Shown here: piece after piece, positions 23,113 through 35,338 of the stretch | Numbering within the stretch: position 1 is the first letter of the stretch | Layout of the letters: the number at the start of each line of letters is the position of its first letter | Translations under genes and position numbers: made by a program | Notes under the pieces: model-generated | The model's database searches: none | What the model saw: the letters and a program-made list of their open reading frames with translations, nothing else | Told to the model about the DNA's origin: nothing | Source of the DNA: an uncultured Campylobacterales bacterium | Lineage (GTDB): Bacteria; Campylobacterota; Campylobacteria; Campylobacterales; Arcobacteraceae | DNA length: 64,000 nt | Reading direction: 5' to 3' | Assembly: GCA_947494995.1 (NCBI GenBank) | Contig: CANLWY010000001.1 | Coordinates: forward strand, 930,001-994,000

Positions 23113-24327
23113 TTATAACTTTAACTTTGGTTTATTATCTTGCATTAAAAATACCGGTTCACTAAAAGGTGCTAGTTTTGCTAGAAAATTAAGTAATGAA
23201 ATAACAGGTGACCCATAAAAAAACTTTACATTTGGATTATAAACCCAAAGTTGGTCTGCATATTTATATACTTTATGTGGAGTATCACCTACGTTATCTC
23301 CATCTTTATCAAATCCTTCATAGTTATCCCAGTAATTCCCTACAATTTCATTTTTGTAAGTTCTAGCACCTCTACTATCATTTACCACATCTTCAATATT
23401 TCCTAAAATTGTATTCTTTTTTATAATATTATTTTCACTTAAAGAGTGAAAGTGAATAGCTTCAGAGTTATATAAAATTTTATTCTCTTCTATCCAGTTA
23501 TTAGTATCTGGTTCAAAAGGAGATCTATCTATATAAATTCCTGTAGCATTATAAAGTACAGTATTGTCTTTTAGTGTAAAGTTCGAAACATCTTTAAGTC
23601 CAATACCCATACCAGTAGCTCCAAGTGAACTTTTTACAACATTTCCTGTTGCAATAGTATCTTTACTGTACATAAAAAATATTCCTACAGAATTAAACTT
23701 ATATATATTGTTTCTTACAAAGTTTTTTCCTGCATACATAAAGTGTAAGGAATATCTATTATATTCCCCATAGTTCTCTGATATTTCATTTCCATGAGAA
23801 TACCAAACTACCATATCTCTTGATTTTACAACCTTGTTTTTTGTAACAATATTATCATTTGAGTACCAAAGTCTAAGAGCATCACCTCTTAATCCTAAGT
23901 CTAAATCTTTTGATGTAATATAATTGTTTGAAAAAATAGAGTTATTTGTCATTGAAATATCAAGTCCAAATAGAGTATCTCTTATAATACAATCTGATAT
24001 TTCAGATTGTTTAGAGTTTTCTATTTTTATTCCTGCATCTAATTTATCATGTCTTGCTCCACTATTTTGAATAGTTAGATTTTTTAAAGTTACATATGGA
24101 CTGTTTATTGTTACAACTGTACCAACTCCAAGACCATCAATAATAACTCCATCTTCTTTTCCTATAATTGATAAAGGTTTTTTAATTACAATTGAACCTT
24201 TATAAATACCTTTAGGAAGTTTTAAAATTGAACCTTCAGGTGCTTTGTCTATTGCTTCTTGCAATATATTTGCATATAAAAAGTTGAATAATAAAAAAGA
24301 AAAAGCAACAAAAATTTTAAACATCAT
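23113..24327 (-). CDS. nosD: NosD, periplasmic copper-site maturation protein
   Basis: A 404-residue secreted protein with a signal peptide (about 18 residues) and a right-handed parallel beta-helix made of repeated short N/I-rich coils (for example NSIFSNNYI, NIVTKNKVV, NNIIKKNTIL), the CASH/NosD fold. It acts with NosF and NosY in assembling the CuZ centre. It shares 1 nt with the nosB stop (stop/start overlap). Confidence 0.9.
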   Translation of the reverse strand: MMFKIFVAFSFLLFNFLYANILQEAIDKAPEGSILKLPKGIYKGSIVIKKPLSIIGKEDGVIIDGLGVGTVVTINSPYVTLKNLTIQNSGARHDKLDAGIKIENSKQSEISDCIIRDTLFGLDISMTNNSIFSNNYITSKDLDLGLRGDALRLWYSNDNIVTKNKVVKSRDMVVWYSHGNEISENYGEYNRYSLHFMYAGKNFVRNNIYKFNSVGIFFMYSKDTIATGNVVKSSLGATGMGIGLKDVSNFTLKDNTVLYNATGIYIDRSPFEPDTNNWIEENKILYNSEAIHFHSLSENNIIKKNTILGNIEDVVNDSRGARTYKNEIVGNYWDNYEGFDKDGDNVGDTPHKVYKYADQLWVYNPNVKFFYGSPVISLLNFLAKLAPFSEPVFLMQDNKPKLKL

Positions 24328-25121
24328 TAAGCCTTATAGTTGATTCCTGTTTCATTCATAGCTTTATTTTTAGATAGAATAGATAATAAGCTAAATAGAC
24401 CAATTGCTAATATTACATAGAAACCTATAGTTGGATATGAGTGAGTTGTAAATTGTGCAATCTTTCCATCTCCAAAAACTGTAGGCATAAAGGGTTTAAT
24501 TTTAAATGCACCCCAATCATGTAGATTGTGACCAAACCAATAAAGCCAATATGAATAATCAGCAATAAATAATAGTGGCAATGATGCAGGTATATACATG
24601 ATATATGTTAATATTTTTTTATGAAAAAGAATAAAATAAATCATAAAAAGAGAAAGTCCTAAAAGAGCATATATTCCTATTTCTCTTTCTAAAATTCCAC
24701 CTCTCCACATAGGATCCATCCCTACATAGTGATTAATTGTATTCATTTCATGAACCTCACCTGAAAACCCATCAAAATGAAAGAATACAGGTATCCCATC
24801 AGGGAAGGCTTCTTTTGGATAATTTGGTGCCTCAAGGGAACAGGACCATATAGGAAGTGAAGCTACACCAATTTCTGCAGATGTTTCAATCATCATCTCC
24901 AAGTCATTATGTGCTTCTTTTGGCGTTGTAGTACTTTTATATCTTCCTTGATTATAGAAGTTCCAAACCTTTATAGCTAAAGGAGAAACTTCTTCAGGTT
25001 TTCCTTCATCTATTTTATTTAATGTTCCATGAAAAGCTATCATTGGAAAAGTAAATGCTACTGTTAATAAAATAATTGCAATTGTTGCATATATTTTTGA
25101 TTTTATAAAACTTGAATGCAT
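24327..25121 (-). CDS. nosB: NosB, polytopic membrane protein
   Basis: A 264-residue protein with five to six predicted membrane helices and a large extracytoplasmic loop after TM1. Its position directly after nosZ identifies it as NosB of clade II nos clusters, a membrane protein required for or associated with N2O respiration whose molecular function is not established. Conserved-looking features are EASPLAIKVWNFYNQG-like text (SPLAIKVWNFYNQGRY) and paired Trp residues (WLYWFGHNLHDW). Confidence 0.8.
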   Translation of the reverse strand: MHSSFIKSKIYATIAIILLTVAFTFPMIAFHGTLNKIDEGKPEEVSPLAIKVWNFYNQGRYKSTTTPKEAHNDLEMMIETSAEIGVASLPIWSCSLEAPNYPKEAFPDGIPVFFHFDGFSGEVHEMNTINHYVGMDPMWRGGILEREIGIYALLGLSLFMIYFILFHKKILTYIMYIPASLPLLFIADYSYWLYWFGHNLHDWGAFKIKPFMPTVFGDGKIAQFTTHSYPTIGFYVILAIGLFSLLSILSKNKAMNETGINYKA

Positions 25122-25216
25122 TTTTGTCCTTCAGTTTAAGTTTTAAAATATAAGTTAAAGTAATAACTTATATTTTAGGACTTATAATTTAATAGAATAT
25201 CAAAAGTGATTACTTT

Positions 25217-25251
25217 TGTCGTTGATTTCTATCAACAAAAGAGGAAGAACA
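25217..25251 (-). promoter_or_regulatory. Perfect FNR-type box inside a hairpin between nosZ and nosB
   Basis: TTGATTTCTATCAA at 25222-25235 is an exact TTGAT-N4-ATCAA palindrome, the consensus for FNR/CRP-class anaerobic regulators. Flanking bases extend it to a larger hairpin (CTTTTGT..ACAAAAG, read on the minus strand). It lies about 43 nt after the nosZ stop and about 100 nt before the nosB start. It may be an internal promoter control site or an mRNA stabiliser separating abundant nosZ from the accessory genes. Confidence 0.5.
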
Positions 25252-25277
25252 AATGTCCTTCCACTCTTTATTAGATT

Positions 25278-27875
25278 TTAGAAAAGGTTAGCGTTTTCAT
25301 CAATCCATTTAAGATATTCAATAATATCTTTTGTTTCTTCTTCTGTCATATGTTGGTTAGGCATTTTTAAATTAAAGTAATCAATCATACCTTTTACATA
25401 TGGGTCATCATACATAGTTTCTGGTCTTAAAATAAATCTACTAACCCAATCAACACCATTTTCATGTCTTTGTAATACTCCAGTTAAATCAGGTCCTGAT
25501 GAAACTTTTCCAATTACGTGACAACCATTACAACCACCCTCAGCAAACGCTTTTTCACCACGTGTCGCTGATGCACTCTGTTTTGTTGCAACCTTTCTAA
25601 CTAAAGCATCTTTTGCTCTAATACCAACATCTGCTGTTTTAACCATTAATTGCCAAATCATATTTTCAAAAAGAATAGCTTTTTCAACATCTCCAGCCTC
25701 TAATGCTTCATTAGCTAATTTTTTCTGTGCAGGAATTTGCCCATATTGATCAAATGCATCAGTAACTAGGTCTGCAACAACTTTGTGTTCTCCAAATTTA
25801 TTATCTTTTAAGAATTTAACAACAGATTGGATAACTGCATCAGTTGCATTATTAACTGCAACAGTTTTGTCATATTCTGCTTTTAACTCTTCAGGAGACA
25901 TTGTTTTCATTTTAATTTTTTGTGCACTTACATATTTTTTATTAGGGTCTTTAACCATTAAATAACCCATCATTTCTAAGTGAAGTGCTGAACAAAACTC
26001 TGTACAATAGTAAGGGAATACACCTTCCATATCTGCAACAAACTCTAAAGTAGTAGTTTCACCTGGTTCTAAAGAAGCATGTTGGTTATAGTTATCAATT
26101 GTAAATCCATGAGTTTCATCTTGAGCTCTCTCTAAGTTAGTCATGTGAAGAGTAATCTTATCACCCTTATTAACTGTAATTCTCTCTGGATTAATGTGAG
26201 ATCTAACTAATGTAGCATAGATAGTTACATTTTTTCCATCTCTTTCAATTCTTTCTTGACCAGCCAAAGTCTTACCAACGTGAATCTTACCAGTTTTAGA
26301 GTTTGTACCCATTTTGTATCTTACATGTGGGTGTAATTTTTCAGCTCTAATAGCTACCGCTTGGTGAGGTTCACCTAAAGGTAATGGCATGTCAACAAGT
26401 AAATCCATAGTTTTACCTCTAATATCAATCAATTGGTGATTTTGAGGGTGTAATGGACCAACATTTTGGAATCTATCAATTGACAGTTTATTAAGTGCAA
26501 TGATATATTCACCTTGAGGATCAGAAGATTTTCCTTCCATACCAGCTAAGTGACCAATGTTATAGTGAACATTCTCTTTATCTAATACTTTTAGGTTTTT
26601 GTAATCCCATTTAACAACTTGTGAGTCAACATATAATGAAGTATATACTTGACCATCAACTGGTGAGAATTGTGTATGTAAAGGCCCAAGTCCTAGCTCT
26701 AGTTGTCCGTGTAAAGATTTTTTCATATCTAAAATTGGAATACCGTATGGATCTTTTCCTACATACTCTTTATTATCAATTAATTTCTTAATTTTTCTAA
26801 AGTCATATACAGAAGCATGTGTATCTAGTTTACCACAAACAATCATATATCTACCATCAGGTGATACATCAACACCATGAGGTGATTTAGGTTCTGGAAT
26901 TAAGAATAATGCTTCATGTTTAACAGCAACTTCAATTGGAATAACTCTATGATCATTAATGATTTCTACATTTTTTGGATCTTTTGCAACTTCTGCTAAC
27001 TTTTCCCAGTTATATACATGTAAAAAGTCAGTGTCATTTCTTGACATACCTGCTTCATTTGGTGGCATTCCAACCTCAATCCCACCTGTATACATCTCTG
27101 TATTGAATGAATTAGTAAATCCCCAACCGTAACTTTCTCCTTTACCTGCATCACTTAAATCTTGGTGATATGGAGGAAACTCAATTGTATAAGAATCTTT
27201 TGGTAAGATACGACCTTTTTTATGGTCGAACTTCCACATTGTAACCCCACCTCTATAAGTTTCCTTATAGTCTTCTATTGGATGATAGTTATTATCAAAT
27301 GGAGCTGCATATTGAGACGCTTCAATAATATACTCTGAGTTTGGTGTGAAGAATGCTCCACCATGATCAGACTTAAATACTGGATTTGGTACGATTTGTT
27401 TAGTTTCAAAATCTTCAAGGTCAATAATTGCGATTCTTGGATTAGCTTTATCATTAATAGCTAACCATTTACCATCATATTTACCATCAATTTCAGAAAG
27501 TGCAGGGTGGTGAGTATCTCCCCAATTAATCTCTTTTCCTCTGATATTACCTTGTCTTAATATCTCTAGAGAGTCTTTATCATAACCATAACCTTGCCAT
27601 GGTTCTGGAGTAAATACACCAATATATTTTAAGATTCTCATTGATGGTACACCATAAACAATTACTTGTCCTGATTGTCCACCAGATGAAAATATAACAT
27701 ATTTGTCTTTTACACCAGTTGGATTATAAGTTTTTGCTGCTCTAATAACATCAATCTCAGATAGACCTCTTTCTTTCATTACTTTAGCTAACTGACTTGT
27801 TGCTCCTGATGCAACAGTGGCAGTTAGTACAGTTCCTAAAAGTAATGAAGAAAGTTTACTGTGTGTTCTTTTCAT
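25278..27875 (-). CDS. nosZ: Clade II nitrous oxide reductase NosZ with cytochrome c tail
   Basis: An 865-residue enzyme reducing N2O to N2 in the periplasm. A Sec signal peptide (about 24 residues), not a Tat signal, marks the atypical clade II type. The N-terminal beta-propeller carries CuZ histidines in DTHHPALSEIDG, KSDHGGAFF and PKSPHGVDVSPDG. The cupredoxin domain has the CuA motif YYCTEFCSALHLEMMGYL. The C-terminal cytochrome c domain has CNGCH at about residues 782-786, a fusion typical of Campylobacterota NosZ. AAGGAG precedes the ATG. It is the first gene of the nos cluster. Confidence 0.97.
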   Translation of the reverse strand: MKRTHSKLSSLLLGTVLTATVASGATSQLAKVMKERGLSEIDVIRAAKTYNPTGVKDKYVIFSSGGQSGQVIVYGVPSMRILKYIGVFTPEPWQGYGYDKDSLEILRQGNIRGKEINWGDTHHPALSEIDGKYDGKWLAINDKANPRIAIIDLEDFETKQIVPNPVFKSDHGGAFFTPNSEYIIEASQYAAPFDNNYHPIEDYKETYRGGVTMWKFDHKKGRILPKDSYTIEFPPYHQDLSDAGKGESYGWGFTNSFNTEMYTGGIEVGMPPNEAGMSRNDTDFLHVYNWEKLAEVAKDPKNVEIINDHRVIPIEVAVKHEALFLIPEPKSPHGVDVSPDGRYMIVCGKLDTHASVYDFRKIKKLIDNKEYVGKDPYGIPILDMKKSLHGQLELGLGPLHTQFSPVDGQVYTSLYVDSQVVKWDYKNLKVLDKENVHYNIGHLAGMEGKSSDPQGEYIIALNKLSIDRFQNVGPLHPQNHQLIDIRGKTMDLLVDMPLPLGEPHQAVAIRAEKLHPHVRYKMGTNSKTGKIHVGKTLAGQERIERDGKNVTIYATLVRSHINPERITVNKGDKITLHMTNLERAQDETHGFTIDNYNQHASLEPGETTTLEFVADMEGVFPYYCTEFCSALHLEMMGYLMVKDPNKKYVSAQKIKMKTMSPEELKAEYDKTVAVNNATDAVIQSVVKFLKDNKFGEHKVVADLVTDAFDQYGQIPAQKKLANEALEAGDVEKAILFENMIWQLMVKTADVGIRAKDALVRKVATKQSASATRGEKAFAEGGCNGCHVIGKVSSGPDLTGVLQRHENGVDWVSRFILRPETMYDDPYVKGMIDYFNLKMPNQHMTEEETKDIIEYLKWIDENANLF

Positions 27876-28778: not shown

Positions 28779-30374
28779 ATGTTTGATGGTTTTAGTTTTA
28801 CAAAAAGGTATATTTTAGCACTTACAATTATCGCTTGTCTGTCTTTATTAGCTTTTTTTAATCTAAGTAAACTTTTAAGTATTCAATCAAATGATGCGGC
28901 ACTTATCAATATGAGTGGTAATCAAAAAATTATTACAAGAGAGATAGCATTTTTTTCTATCTACTATAAAATTGATAAATTAAAATCTAAAATCCAAGAG
29001 ATGGAAGAAAATCACAAGAAGTTAACATCTTTAGAACTATCTGAGGAATTGAATGATGTATATTATGGAAAAAAAATTAATTTAGATGAAAAAGTTAAGA
29101 AATATCTCTTCCATGCAAAAAGATTTTATGAAAATAGAGATGGACGAAGTCAAAATTATGTATTAAAAAGTTCAGAACATCTTTTACAAGACTTACAAAA
29201 AGCTGTTTCTGTTTATTTAAAAGAAGCTCAAGCAAACACTAGAAAACTTCAACAAATAGAAACTTATATTATGATTTCTACTATGATAACACTACTTTTT
29301 GAAGCTCTGTTTATCTTTATGCCTGCAAATAGAAGTATAAATAAAAGAACAAATGATTTAATTAAAGAGAAAGAGTTTTCAAATGCAGTTATTGAAACAA
29401 GTACAAATGCAATCATTACCCTTGATAGTGATTTGAAGATAAGAACCTTTAACAAAGAAGCAGAAAAAATATTCCTTTATACTAAAAGTGAAATGCTAAA
29501 TAGACCTCTTTTTGGAAGACTTATACCTAATAGTGATGTTCTAAATACAGATAATATTGGTGAGGTGCAAGAGCTTGAAGCTGTAAATAAAGAAGGTAAA
29601 AGTTTTCCTATTAGAATATCATTTGGTAGAAGTGGAGAACACAAAAATATTGCAATTGTTGCAAATATACAAGATATTTCAAAAGAAAAGTTAAATGATA
29701 AGATTCTAGAAGAACAATCAAAATTTGCAGCACTTGGTGAAATGATTGCAATTATTGCACATCAATGGAGACAACCCCTTGCGCAGTTAAGTTTTAATTG
29801 TATGTATATAAAAAAGAAGACAAAAGATAAGGATATTTTAGAAGAGTCTATAGCAAATGAAGAGATTATTCAATTTATGTCTGAGACTATTACAAATTTT
29901 CAAGATTTTTATAAAAAGACTGATAATACAGTTTTCAATCCAATTGTTTCTATCGAACAGGCTTTAAGAATTGTTGATTCTATGTTACGTTTAAAAGAGG
30001 TCTCATTAACAAAAGAGATTGATTCAAAAATTGAAATCTATGGTAATTCAAACAGTTTAGCACATATTGTTCTATCAATTATTCAAAATACATTAGATAT
30101 TGTAAAAATGGAAAAAGTTGAAAAACCATCTATTTCAATTAGTTTACAAGACACAGAAGAGAATATTGTTTTATCTATTAGTGATAATGCAGGTGGAATA
30201 AAAATAGAACCTATTGAAGATATTTTTAAACCTTTTAATACAAAAAAAGAGAAATCTTCGACAGGTATTGGTCTTTATATGTCAAAAATGATTATTAAGA
30301 ATCAATTTAAGGGAACAATTAAAGCAAGAAATATAAATAATGGAGCAGAATTTACAATTCTTCTGCCCCATTAA
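28779..30374 (+). CDS. Histidine kinase with PilJ/NarX-type sensor region and PAS
   Basis: A 531-residue kinase. TM1 is at about 10-30, followed by INMSGNQKIITREIAFFS, which resembles the PilJ/NarX P-box region (I-N-x-S/A-G-x-x-R/K) used in nitrate/nitrite sensing. TM2 lies at about 160-180, then a PAS domain (NAVIETSTNAIITLDSDLK), an H-box with AHQWRQPLAQL, and a HATPase domain (DNAGGI, STGIGLYMSK). GAGGA precedes the ATG. It is divergent from its likely partner regulator at 28018. Ligand assignment is inference. Confidence 0.83.
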   Translation: MFDGFSFTKRYILALTIIACLSLLAFFNLSKLLSIQSNDAALINMSGNQKIITREIAFFSIYYKIDKLKSKIQEMEENHKKLTSLELSEELNDVYYGKKINLDEKVKKYLFHAKRFYENRDGRSQNYVLKSSEHLLQDLQKAVSVYLKEAQANTRKLQQIETYIMISTMITLLFEALFIFMPANRSINKRTNDLIKEKEFSNAVIETSTNAIITLDSDLKIRTFNKEAEKIFLYTKSEMLNRPLFGRLIPNSDVLNTDNIGEVQELEAVNKEGKSFPIRISFGRSGEHKNIAIVANIQDISKEKLNDKILEEQSKFAALGEMIAIIAHQWRQPLAQLSFNCMYIKKKTKDKDILEESIANEEIIQFMSETITNFQDFYKKTDNTVFNPIVSIEQALRIVDSMLRLKEVSLTKEIDSKIEIYGNSNSLAHIVLSIIQNTLDIVKMEKVEKPSISISLQDTEENIVLSISDNAGGIKIEPIEDIFKPFNTKKEKSSTGIGLYMSKMIIKNQFKGTIKARNINNGAEFTILLPH

Positions 30375-30382
30375 TATACTAT

Positions 30383-30745
30383 TTAGAAATTTTTAATTTC
30401 AAGTGCTTTTAGTTCTTTAGGGCTTTGTACTCCCATTTTTTTATCAACTATTTTCCCATCTTTAAAGTATAATAAGGTTGGGACTCCTATCACTTTATAT
30501 TTTTTTGGTATGTCCGAATAGTCTGCTACATTTAGTTTATATATTTTCACATCTTTGGCTTTACTTGTATCTTTATATGTATGTAAATTCTTACCTAGAA
30601 CCTTACATGAACCTCACCAAATTGCATGAAAATCAACTATTATATTTCCTTTACTAGTCTTTGCTTCAAAGTTTTTTGAAGTTAATTCTTCAAATGCAAA
30701 CAGTGAAACAAAAGAGAATAGTAAGACTAATAGTATTTTTTTCAT
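30383..30745 (-). CDS. Thioredoxin-fold selenoprotein (UGA-encoded Sec at residue 44)
   Basis: Reading from ATG 30745 (preceded by AAGGAA) gives a 120-residue secreted protein with a signal peptide (MKKILLVLLFSFVSLFAF) and a thioredoxin fold: IIVDFHAIW-U-GSCKVL, then VIGVPTLLYFKDGKIV with the cis-Pro. An in-frame TGA (30614-30616) sits exactly where the first Cys of WCxxC belongs, giving a UGSC redox motif. Seventeen nt after the TGA is a 5-nt apical loop AGGTA on stems TTCT/AGAA and ATGTAA/TTACAT, meeting the rules for bacterial SECIS elements. It is probably a periplasmic thiol-disulfide or reductive enzyme. Stop-to-stop reading would split it into two pieces. Confidence 0.85.
30581..30608 (-). 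promoter_or_regulatory. Bacterial SECIS-like hairpin of the thioredoxin-fold gene
   Basis: A hairpin lies directly downstream of the in-frame TGA: outer stem ATGTAA/TTACAT (6 bp), small internal loop (GG against T), inner stem TTCT/AGAA (4 bp), apical loop AGGTA with G in its second position. The loop begins 17 nt after the TGA. Confidence 0.7.
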
Positions 30746-30823: not shown

Positions 30824-30858
30824 AAATACTTAAAAGGCTTAAAGCCTTTTAAGTATTT
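30824..30858 (-). terminator. Terminator hairpin of the hydrogenase-chemoreceptor operon
   Basis: A perfect 15-bp stem (AAATACTTAAAAGGC / GCCTTTTAAGTATTT) with a 5-nt loop begins at the stop codon of the chemoreceptor gene. The U-run is poor. Confidence 0.65.
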
Positions 30859-32831
30859 TAATTAAGAATGTCAAACTTTTTACTGTTTACATCTTTTACA
30901 AGTTTTTGAGATAGTGTTTGTACATCACTCGCAATCTCATCTGTTCTTGCAGTTGTTGTTGCATTTTTTTGAGTAATTAAATCTAGTTGTTGAACGGCAT
31001 TGTTAATCTGTTCTAAACCAATTTGTTGTTCTTTACTAGCTTCTGTAACATCAGAAATTAGTTCTAGAGTATTTTCAATCTTTGATTTAATTTCTATATA
31101 ACCATTAATCATATCGGAACTTTTCTCTTTCCCATGATTAGCTTTTTGTGTTGCATCTTCAACTAAAGTTTTAATCTCTTTTGCAGCTTCAGCAGATCTT
31201 GCAGCTAAGTTTCTAACCTCTCCTGCAACAACTGCAAAGCCTTTACCCGCTTCTCCGGCTGTTGCTGCTTCTACTGCTGCATTTAAAGATAAAATATTAG
31301 TTTGAAATGCAATCTGATCAATTACTGAAATAGCTTCATTGATAGCATTAACTTTTTCATTTATCTCTTCCATTGAATTTACAGTATCGTTTGCAAGTTT
31401 ATTACCTGTATTTACTGAATCATTTAATGAATTTGATAGACTCTGCATTTGTACAGTTTTTTCTGTATTATGCTTGACATTTGAAGTAATCTCTTCTAGA
31501 CTAGCTGATGTTTCTTCTAAACTAGCTGCTTGAGTTGTAGCTGCTTCATTTAGTGTATTTACATTTGCTTTCAGGTTATTTGCATTTTCATCAAGTGTTT
31601 CACCATTTTGTCTATTTTCGTTTAGCATTTTAGAGATATATATTGATAACTCATTTATTGAAGTTTCAATTTCTCCTTTTGGATTAGATACTTTTGCTCT
31701 AAAGTCTAAGTTTTGATATTCATTTAGGACTTTAAGTATTTCATTTACATTTGTACCTATACCTTTACTTAATTGGTCAATCATTGAATTAATAAGCTCT
31801 TTTAATTCGTTTAATGATTGGCTATTTGCAGTAGAAGTTATCTTTTGATCAAAATGACCATTTGATATTCTTTGGGCTACATTTTTTGTATCTTCAATAA
31901 GTTTAGAGTCTATTTCAAGCCCTTTTTCTATACTTTGTATATACTCATTGAATAAAGATGAGATTTGTGCAATTTCATCTTTTGATTTAACCTCTATTTT
32001 AGATCCTTTTGAATTAATTAAGTCTAAAACTCCATTTTTAAGAATGTCTAAATAGCTTACCAATCGTTTTGAAACAAAAATTGATATAACTGAAATTATA
32101 ATAGTAATAATTAAAAGAACTATTCCAAAATCAAAAATTTTCTCTTGTAGCTCTTCAATATCTGCTTCATTAGAGAGTACAATACCTAAATGTCCTGCAC
32201 TTTCTCCTTCTTTCCAATTTGTGTGGCAAACTATACAGTCTTGAGTTACAGGAATATCATAATAAAACTCTGAGCTATTTCCTTCAATAACAGATGCAAA
32301 CGAGTTTTTGAATTTAAGTTTCTTATTTATTTCAATATGACACTCTTTACAAGTTTTTCCTTCATCTTCCTTTTTCTTTATATGTTTTTTTGCCTTTTTA
32401 GTTTCATGATGATCCTTTATTGTGTAATCATCTCTTAGAAAAAGCCCATTGGTTTTTTCATAAAGTTCTAGGTTTGGGTTTTCAATTTTTCCTTCTTTTA
32501 TTACCATTGGAAGACCTACTGTCTTTTCTCCTGATATATAAGTTGCTAGACCACTTCTAGAGAATAGTAAAGTTTTTTGTACACCATCAACTGAGGCAGT
32601 ACTATCCATAACTCTTTGAAATGTATGTCTTTGCCCTTTTGCAATTGAGTCTTTAGAGTTTTTTTCATAACTATCTAATAGTGAATATCCTTTTTTTTCA
32701 ATGCTTGTTTCAAGATTTGATTTAAACAAGTAATAGATTACTGCTAAAGAAATAGCAGATACAACAACAACACTAAGTATAAGTGTTGAAGCTAATTTAA
32801 AACCAATTGAATTTTTTAATTTAACGTCCAT
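30858..32831 (-). CDS. Methyl-accepting chemotaxis protein with dihaem periplasmic domain
   Basis: About 657 residues. TM1 is near residues 15-35; a periplasmic sensor domain with two c-type haem motifs follows, CKECH (about 161-165) and CIVCH (about 199-203). Then TM2 (about 230-252), a HAMP-like region, and a cytoplasmic signalling domain with the conserved hairpin tip [21 protein letters not shown]. It resembles DUF3365-type haem sensors. I prefer ATG 32831 over an upstream TTG because GGATAAG precedes it. It is the last gene of an operon with the hydrogenase subunits, 4 nt after the small subunit, so H2-derived electrons are a plausible signal (inference). Confidence 0.85.
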
Positions 32832-32835
32832 TTTC

Positions 32836-33777
32836 TTATCCAACTATTTTAAAGTTTTTTATTTTTCTTGTATCTTTAAAACTATGATACATAATTTGTC
32901 TAGGGAAATGCTCACTAGCACAACCAATACAAGGATGACCTGCTTTTATACATGTATTTGTATCTGCATTATGACCTAATACCAAACAATCATTTTTTGT
33001 AATAGGCCCTTGACAACCAAGCTTAAATAGACAACCTCTATCTCCTATAAATTTAGCAAATATTTTTTCTTGATAATCTGAATAATAGATACATCTGTCA
33101 TGAATAGTTCTTTCATAAAACTGCAAAGGTCTATTAGATGAATCAAGTGTTGGTAGTTTTCCAAGTCTTCCATAATGAAGGAGAGTATATACCAAATGTT
33201 CAGGCTTCATGGGACAGTTTGGAAGACTTACTATTGGTTTATGAATATTTCTTTTTTCCATAAAATCATCAATACTAACTGCACCACAAGTCATACCCTC
33301 CATTGTAGTGATTCCTCCAAATACAGCACATGTTCCAGCACTTATTACAGCAGTTGCATTTTTAGCAAGTAAATCAACCCAATCCATTATAGGCTTATCT
33401 CCCATTAAACATGCATGAGGTAAGCCAAGTGGAACAGAACCTTCAACGACTAGTATATAATCATTTTTAAATTCTTTTGCAGCAGTATTTAAAATATTTA
33501 TTACATCATCACCTGTTGCACTTGAAATATCAGGATGAAACATAATATTTGAAAATTCTGTCAAGATGTCAGTAAGAGGTACATCTTCTATATTTAAAAA
33601 TGAAGTAGAACAACCAGAACAGGATGAGGCATGAATCCATACTATATTAGGCTTCTTATAAAGAGCATTAGATGTTTGACTAGCTAATAAATCATCAAGA
33701 CTAATAAATGATGCCGCACCAACAGTAACAATTACATTGTAAAATCTTTTTAGAGCTTCTCTTCTTGAAATAGACAT
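32836..33777 (-). CDS. [NiFe] hydrogenase small subunit with Tat signal
   Basis: A 313-residue electron-transfer subunit. The N-terminal SRREALKRF Tat motif is followed by a hydrophobic stretch to about residue 33. Cluster ligands are in [11 protein letters not shown] (proximal), [18 protein letters not shown], and a C-terminal [20 protein letters not shown] and [13 protein letters not shown] for the medial and distal clusters. No C-terminal membrane anchor helix is present. It is the exporting partner for the large subunit, so the dimer should be periplasmic. The gene follows the large subunit (11 nt), the reverse of the usual small-large order. Confidence 0.9.
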
Positions 33778-33787
33778 ATTATACTCC

Positions 33788-35338
33788 TTAGTGTACAGAA
33801 CATGCCATACATGGATCAGTTGATCTTACTATTCTTGCAAGTTCTATAGGGTTTTTTGGATCTTTGATTTCTGTATTTAATAGCATTTTTTCAACTGCGC
33901 CAGGTCTTTCATCACCATCTTTTGGTGAGATATTCCAAGTTGTTGGAACTATCATGTCATAGTTTTTAATTAATCCATTATCATCTGTTTCTATAAAATG
34001 AGCTAATCCTCCTCTTGTTGCTTCTGTTAAGCCATACCCTTTTGCGTTTTTTGGAACTTCATGTTCTATAAAACCTAATTCATATGGAACAACTTTTTGA
34101 ACATCATCTAATAATTTATCCATTATTAGAGTTGATACAATTGCTCTACATAGGTGTCTACCCATTACAGAGTCATAATCACTAATAGTAATATCTAATT
34201 CCATATTGATTTTATCAACAAGTTTATTTAGTTTTTGATTTTTCCCACTATTATAAGTATTTACTACTTTTGCTATTGGACCAACTTCAACTACATTACC
34301 TTTATATCTAGGTGATCTTGTCCATGAATATTTTCCATTACTTTTATTATGTTCTTTTTTATATTCATTAAAATCAATAGGTGTCATAGTAGTATTTTCA
34401 AGTGGTTTTATATTTGTATCTGGAAAATCTTTATAATACGAATATTTATGATCTTCTTTAATATAGTTTATATTTAACTCTTCAAATTCCCCATTTGAAG
34501 GAGTGTATCCTCCGACAAACAAATGGTTTTCTCCATTTTCATCTGGTAAATAAGGAAAACTTAGGAAATTTCCATAGCCTTTCCCTATAGAAAAATACTC
34601 TTTAAACTCTTTTGCTGTTGTTATTACGTCAGACATAAACTTTTTTTGAATAAAATCTTGAACACCTTCAAGAAGTGAAGTATATTTTGCTATATTTCCC
34701 ACTGTAGGCATAGTTGTAACTCCACCAGCCTCAATTGCCACTGGATGAGGTGCTTTTGCACCAAAAATTGCAACCATTTTTGTAAGATCAGACATTATTT
34801 CTATTGATTCAAGATATCCTTTTATTGCTGAAAGATTGAAGTCTTTATTTTGTGAATAAAATGCTTCATATCTAGGTAAAAATGGAGCTGCTGGAAAGAT
34901 TTTATTACTCTTTAGTTCTGAGTTTACCCAATCTTTTAAATTATTTATTGCTTTATCTTCACCTTGATATTTTAATATATCTGTAATATCAATAAAATCA
35001 AGTGCACACAAAATATAAAAATGTAGTAGATAATCCTGTAATTGATAAGCACCAACAATAAGATTTCTTAACAACTGACCATTTTTATTCAACTTAATAC
35101 CCATTGCAGACTCAAGTGCTAATGCCGCTGCTTCTGCATGTGCATACGGACAAACTCCACAAACTCTTTGTGTTACTTGACCTGCAACTCTTGCGTCATA
35201 GCCTATTAAAGCTTTTTCTATACCCCTAAACATATCTCCCGAACATTTTGCATCTACAACTTTTCCATTTTCAATAGATGTTTCAAATCTTAAATGCCCT
35301 TCAATTCTTGTGAGTGGGTCTACTACAATCTTTTCCAT
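33788..35338 (-). CDS. [NiFe] hydrogenase large subunit lacking the C-terminal extension
   Basis: A 516-residue catalytic subunit with nickel-binding Cys pairs RVCGVCPYAHAEAAALALE (L1) and DPCMACSVH (L2). The chain ends exactly at the last His of L2; family members matured by an endopeptidase carry about 15 more residues, which are absent here. The stop codon overlaps the small-subunit ribosome-binding site, so no extension fits. Absence of the extension is a known feature of H2-sensing regulatory hydrogenases (HupV/HoxC) and some others. N-terminal VVDPLTRIEGHLR is standard. It is first in an operon with the small subunit and a dihaem chemoreceptor. Confidence 0.9.
   Translation of the reverse strand: MEKIVVDPLTRIEGHLRFETSIENGKVVDAKCSGDMFRGIEKALIGYDARVAGQVTQRVCGVCPYAHAEAAALALESAMGIKLNKNGQLLRNLIVGAYQLQDYLLHFYILCALDFIDITDILKYQGEDKAINNLKDWVNSELKSNKIFPAAPFLPRYEAFYSQNKDFNLSAIKGYLESIEIMSDLTKMVAIFGAKAPHPVAIEAGGVTTMPTVGNIAKYTSLLEGVQDFIQKKFMSDVITTAKEFKEYFSIGKGYGNFLSFPYLPDENGENHLFVGGYTPSNGEFEELNINYIKEDHKYSYYKDFPDTNIKPLENTTMTPIDFNEYKKEHNKSNGKYSWTRSPRYKGNVVEVGPIAKVVNTYNSGKNQKLNKLVDKINMELDITISDYDSVMGRHLCRAIVSTLIMDKLLDDVQKVVPYELGFIEHEVPKNAKGYGLTEATRGGLAHFIETDDNGLIKNYDMIVPTTWNISPKDGDERPGAVEKMLLNTEIKDPKNPIELARIVRSTDPCMACSVH

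Follow-up and report, generated by a model that had tools for sequence, protein, structure and literature searches.

Does the lone in-frame TGA in a thioredoxin-like gene of an uncultured member of the Arcobacteraceae end the protein, or is it translated as selenocysteine (Sec)? The gene lies on the minus strand of the window, i.e. the whole 64,000-nucleotide stretch of DNA analysed here, and an earlier note, made from the sequence alone, had read it as a periplasmic selenium redox protein with a UGSC active site. Standard gene calling ends at residue 43, so public annotation is likely to lack this gene and its relatives or to flag them as broken. We report that UGA codon 44 very probably encodes Sec in a selenoprotein of the thioredoxin family. 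The features of the gene are:

30383..30745, minus strand: predicted Sec-thioredoxin gene, 120 residues with Sec at position 44, stop codon included
30614..30616, minus strand: in-frame TGA read as Sec, at the first position of the (W)CxxC motif (W-U44-G-S-C)
30695..30745, minus strand: signal-peptide-like N-terminus MKKILLVLLFSFVSLFA, read from the sequence
30479..30481, minus strand: P89, the cis-proline of GVPTL, which should face the active site and is invariant in alignment A1
30581..30608, minus strand: putative SECIS hairpin, with the apical loop AGGUA at 30592-30596 and the invariant G at 30595

The interrupted frame and its protein

The frame starts with an ATG at 30745 and ends with a TAA at 30385-30383, and the TGA at 30616-30614 (codon 44) is the only in-frame stop that interrupts it, exactly at the first active-site Cys as the earlier note had placed it. 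With the TGA read as Sec the protein begins with MKKILLVLLFSFVSLFAFEELTSKNFEAKTSKGNIIVDFHAIWUGSCKVLGKNL and has its active site at AIWUGSCK. The first 17 residues form a signal-like stretch of typical composition (two lysines, a hydrophobic run and an alanine), the terminal FAFE of which is invariant in alignment A1, and on this basis we infer that the gene encodes an exported thioredoxin.

The protein scores 71.8 bits against PF00085 (gathering score 23.5; Pfam), which together with the invariant P89 bears out the thioredoxin fold with a cis-Pro that had been predicted for it. An AlphaFold2 model, computed with the window protein and 19 relatives as input, has a mean pLDDT of 89, with low values for the signal-like N-terminus; a helix (residues 45-61) begins after residue 44, and both UxxC at the helix start and the cis-Pro of a thioredoxin fold are present in the model. 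The nearest solved structures in a PDB search were ordinary thioredoxins (TM about 0.8 over the query), among them those from Staphylococcus aureus, Helicobacter pylori and Treponema pallidum. The scores against the TrxA equivalogs were below the curated cut-offs (82.5 vs 96.8 bits for TIGR01068 and 56.7 vs 138 bits for NF006898), and in the NCBIfam scan the protein exceeded the cut-off of no model, selenoprotein models included. The DsbC and DsbE profiles gave weak matches. The window protein is most like a general thioredoxin, and unlike DsbA or DsbC.

Thioredoxins with UxxC (PF00085) are listed among the Sec families verified by experiment (PMC13188914). Seven bacterial cases of Sec-thioredoxins were given in 2006 (PMC1794560), Sec forms of the COG0526 Trx-like 1 group are frequent in marine metagenomes (PMC2398784), and one thioredoxin selenoprotein was counted in the Epsilonproteobacteria in 2015 in the main text of Cravedi et al. 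(PMC4607533), the only report that our literature search on Arcobacter, selenoprotein and thioredoxin found. Because this group is established, also in the Epsilonproteobacteria, we regard the window protein as an additional member of a known family, with which it has in common the PF00085 domain, Sec in place of the first Cys and a SECIS directly downstream, and whose features, as far as compared, it shares except for the SECIS energy limit (see below) and the TrxA equivalog cut-offs. It may differ from known Sec-thioredoxins by its apparent signal peptide and differs in being over the cut-off of no NCBIfam thioredoxin model, and the Arcobacteraceae Sec forms differ by the varied middle residues of UxxC and by forming a clade of their own. 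The protein counted by Cravedi et al. (PMC4607533) is from the same phylum and of the same kind, and is possibly an orthologue, its species and sequence being unstated in their main text; in place of that single count, 24 genes in seven genera were traced here. Among the known selenium-containing thioredoxins, the window protein is a well-founded member that is easy to miss. The UGSC-containing selenoprotein family NF041046 has only the letters UGSC in common with it; its model was not matched in the NCBIfam scan, and we treat it as a different family.

Decoding machinery and the SECIS hairpin

The earlier note had pointed to selA, selB, selC and selD as the genes to look for, and all four were found as a compact cluster on contig C2 of the window's own assembly:

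G000:C2:398849-403668: selD-tRNASec-selA-selB cluster

Here selD (341 bits) itself carries one TGA (context AAGUAAK) and is followed by a tRNA with anticodon tca, which was identified as tRNA-SeC by ARAGORN, and by selA (566 bits) and selB (300.7 bits). The tRNASec scored 46.8 bits against RF01852, marginally short of the gathering score (47), and would thus escape an Rfam scan run with default settings. Three formate-dehydrogenase-like genes with a TGA in a U-H motif (ARIUHS twice, ARLUHG) are also present, which gives at least five candidate Sec genes in this genome including the Sec-thioredoxin; on its gene content the genome should be able to insert Sec. Among 104 genomes of the family a TGA homologue was detected in 19 of the 70 with selB over the cut-off and in 1 of the 34 without (Fisher p = 0.003, a generous value as the genomes are related and not independent). 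The single exception, G096, is an 86% complete MAG.

The hairpin described in the earlier note is present at 30608-30581: the loop AGGUA begins 17 nt after the TGA, with G at its second position, and this G is invariant in 19 sequences. The 5-nt loop is closed by an upper stem of 4 bp (5 bp in the consensus), followed by a bulge and 7 bp. According to the bSECIS model a bacterial SECIS has an apical loop of 3-9 nt on an upper stem of 4-16 bp, a G within the first two loop positions, a distance of 16-37 nt between UGA and loop, and an MFE at or below -7.5 kcal/mol (PMC13188914). The window hairpin agrees with three of these four features (loop and stem size, loop G and the 17-nt distance) but misses the energy limit, with an MFE of -6.3 kcal/mol at every length folded (-5.3 to -11.2 for the homologues). 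Its z-score varies between -0.1 and -2.0 with the length folded, and 18% of synonymous-codon shuffles equal its simplified hairpin score. Taken alone the window hairpin is weak, no better than chance. Moreover, Rfam at gathering thresholds gave no match in the window, which leaves the SECIS without support from a curated RNA family.

It is the relatives, and not the single sequence, that carry the case. We aligned, without gaps, 19 distinct stretches consisting of the TGA and the following 42 nt (identical copies were dropped; L053, with its stem out of register, was left out and G390 is also not in the alignment). The five pairs adjacent to the loop are present in every one of the 95 cells and show 19 double compensatory changes at three stem pairs, while the outer stem is less regular. 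The covariation score was 0.611, compared with 0.35 +/- 0.04 for shuffled sequences and at most 0.25 when the partner was slid; sliding by 1-3 columns lowered the pairing to 25-70%, and shuffles of the 3' letters never attained the observed pairing or covariation. This is far beyond chance and argues that the hairpin is a SECIS; the loop, G and distance given in the earlier note are confirmed, and the relatives add compensatory changes. Cravedi et al. (PMC4607533) present a 5/6-bp hairpin of this kind, likewise containing an invariant G, as the common SECIS of Epsilonproteobacteria.

The pairing is also visible in the protein. Residues 49 and 53 change together (Val/Ile49 with Asn53, Ala/Thr49 with Ser53) because their codons pair in the SECIS stem, i.e. 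an amino-acid pattern is driven by RNA pairing. For L053 (G091:C1:1638324-1638659) the pairing register of the stem is shifted by one base, below a six-base loop that still starts with AG, and residues 48-49 are Glu-Asp instead of Lys-Val; our reading is that this hairpin was kept by a shift and not by pairwise compensation. There was no sign that the Cys forms as a group retain the SECIS stem.

Sec and Cys forms among the relatives

In the Arcobacteraceae we identified 22 TGA homologues, the window gene included, in 20 of the 104 genomes and in six genera, alongside many homologues with Cys. Two further TGA forms, L092 (G316) and L093 (G390), both with the motif UHSC, belong to a second family of the order, giving 24 TGA genes in seven genera. 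Residue 44 is encoded by TGA or Cys in all aligned homologues. The Sec forms have the motifs UGSC, UGAC, UPSC, UPAC, UYAC, UFAC, USAC and UHSC, with U and the second C constant. The earlier note had suggested looking for Cys at this residue, and had named a frameshift or nonsense pattern at codon 44 in related strains as evidence against Sec; the relatives have the Cys/TGA pattern and no scattered changes. Two other readings of the codon were discarded: translation of TGA as Trp or general readthrough, as the aligned residue is Cys and never Trp, and a split gene with an internal restart, as no in-frame ATG follows soon after the TGA when inspected by eye. Matches with an internal stop in four genomes (G081, G082, G089 and G287) were left out of the TGA set; these are ordinary TrxA-like genes with the stop codon upstream of the likely start.

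A lone TGA in an otherwise intact frame is, when only one genome is considered, also what a recent nonsense mutation is expected to look like, and a sequencing error could likewise create it. For the closest pair, the window's genome and G065 (76% identical), dN was 0.117 upstream of the TGA and 0.140 downstream, with dS at 0.75 and 0.80, respectively, i.e. dN/dS is about 0.16 before and 0.18 after, and for seven other pairs dN was lower than dS on both sides (ratios about 0.03 to 0.4). Purifying selection downstream of the TGA is as strong as upstream. With constraint equal on both sides, a TGA at the same codon in 23 other genes from seven genera and a SECIS stem that covaries across relatives, we consider a pseudogene or a sequencing error hardly credible. 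The UxxC selenoprotein proposed in the earlier note is instead supported by the sel cluster, the Cys/TGA pattern and the conserved hairpin.

In a maximum-likelihood tree based on 45 proteins, a branch supported at 100/97 has all 22 TGA genes on the same side. The sole Cys form on that side, L023 (G092:C25:48354-48701), has CPSC, lies among closely similar TGA forms and still has an intact SECIS hairpin sequence; it is best read as an apparent recent change from Sec to Cys. The clade contains Sec and Cys counterparts of one signal-bearing, predicted exported thioredoxin, sometimes within one genome, and these pairs together with the apparent recent Sec-to-Cys change make it directly testable what Sec adds to a thioredoxin. 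Three genomes of one genus have two Sec-clade thioredoxins each (L042/L053 in G091, L016/L051 in G093 and L023/L052, one of them Cys, in G092), so the family appears to have been duplicated or exchanged within this genus. The UHSC forms of the second family suggest gene transfer or deep loss. No relative of the Sec-thioredoxin was found in the viral contigs scanned.

Neighbourhood and proposed role

The genes and loci relevant to the neighbourhood are:

28779-30374: histidine kinase, neighbour of the Sec-thioredoxin gene and convergent with it
30858-32843: methyl-accepting chemotaxis-like gene, neighbour of the Sec-thioredoxin gene
L012, L013, L014, L016, L020, L023, L024, L037, L041, L042 and L045: loci with selO adjacent to the thioredoxin gene

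The same kinase, together with a response regulator, is present beside the thioredoxin gene in G056. The closest paralogue in the window's own genome is a Cys form (G000:C7:126186-126518) that is 51% identical to the window protein, has the same length and likewise has a signal-like N-terminus; it differs in having CPPC and in its position next to dsbD. Specifically, it sits immediately 5' of a full dsbD gene (529.6 bits) and is flanked on its other side by a rhodanese gene. In G086 and G087 a Sec form (UYAC) occupies this dsbD-flanked place between the same neighbours, and the matches listed for these two genomes include no additional CPPC form of the subfamily. It therefore seems that either a Sec or a Cys form can serve in the position linked to dsbD. 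We consider DsbD the likely electron source for the Sec-thioredoxin. The window copy adjoins neither dsbD nor any other thiol-redox gene, so this link is drawn from the relatives.

We propose that SelB and tRNASec would decode UGA codon 44 as Sec, directed by the hairpin immediately downstream, and that the thioredoxin would then be exported, with Sec44 and Cys47 forming a fast thiol/selenol-disulphide exchange centre. On periplasmic client proteins, Sec44 would attack oxidised thiols such as disulphides and sulphenic acids, and Cys47 would resolve the mixed selenenyl-sulphide. The oxidised Sec-thioredoxin would be re-reduced by the membrane electron carrier DsbD, fed by cytosolic thioredoxin, and may work alongside the Cys paralogue encoded beside dsbD. 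Such a DsbD-linked role as periplasmic reductant is the function that we lean towards, with less confidence than in the identity of residue 44; export, reduction by DsbD, the reductive direction and the clients are each presumed.

Exported CxxC proteins with a thioredoxin fold include DsbA- and DsbC-type enzymes, and the Sec form might, given the weak DsbC and DsbE profile matches, serve protein folding in the periplasm, chiefly as an oxidase or isomerase and not as a reductant. A UxxC pair is expected to have a low redox potential, which favours the reducing side, close relatives adjoin dsbD, and both sequence and model group with TrxA-type thioredoxins; we consider a folding role improbable.

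The selO loci raise a further alternative, namely a selenoprotein with a job tied to SelO and not to DsbD, the two forming one oxidative-stress unit. SelO is a protein adenylyltransferase, and its gene is divergent from the thioredoxin gene at 11 loci in three genera (ten Sec genes and the Cys revertant of G092, L023); where complete, SelO at these loci ends in a CSS motif. The SelO sequences examined have no signal-like start, and a SelO without this stretch is expected in the cytosol, whereas the thioredoxin looks exported. Many Sec forms have other neighbours, selO of the window's genome lies elsewhere (G000:C7:141436-142851), and the adjacency would be accounted for by a promoter region common to both genes or by inheritance of the gene order. 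We give this alternative little chance, and continue to favour reduction through DsbD. A wider picture, in which the Arcobacteraceae possess a dedicated periplasmic selenium-redox line, with a DsbD-fed Sec-thioredoxin coupled to SelO that maintains extracytoplasmic thiols and a history of repeated duplications with one or more reversions to Cys, is speculative and rather doubtful.

Finally, the ORF translations of the window revealed other redox genes on the minus strand: a nitrous-oxide reductase, the C-terminus of which is cytochrome-like, together with a neighbouring NosD-like gene (23113-27875), and the small and large subunits of a [NiFe]-hydrogenase (32836-35338), the large subunit of which ends in DPCMACSVH, with Cys and not Sec.
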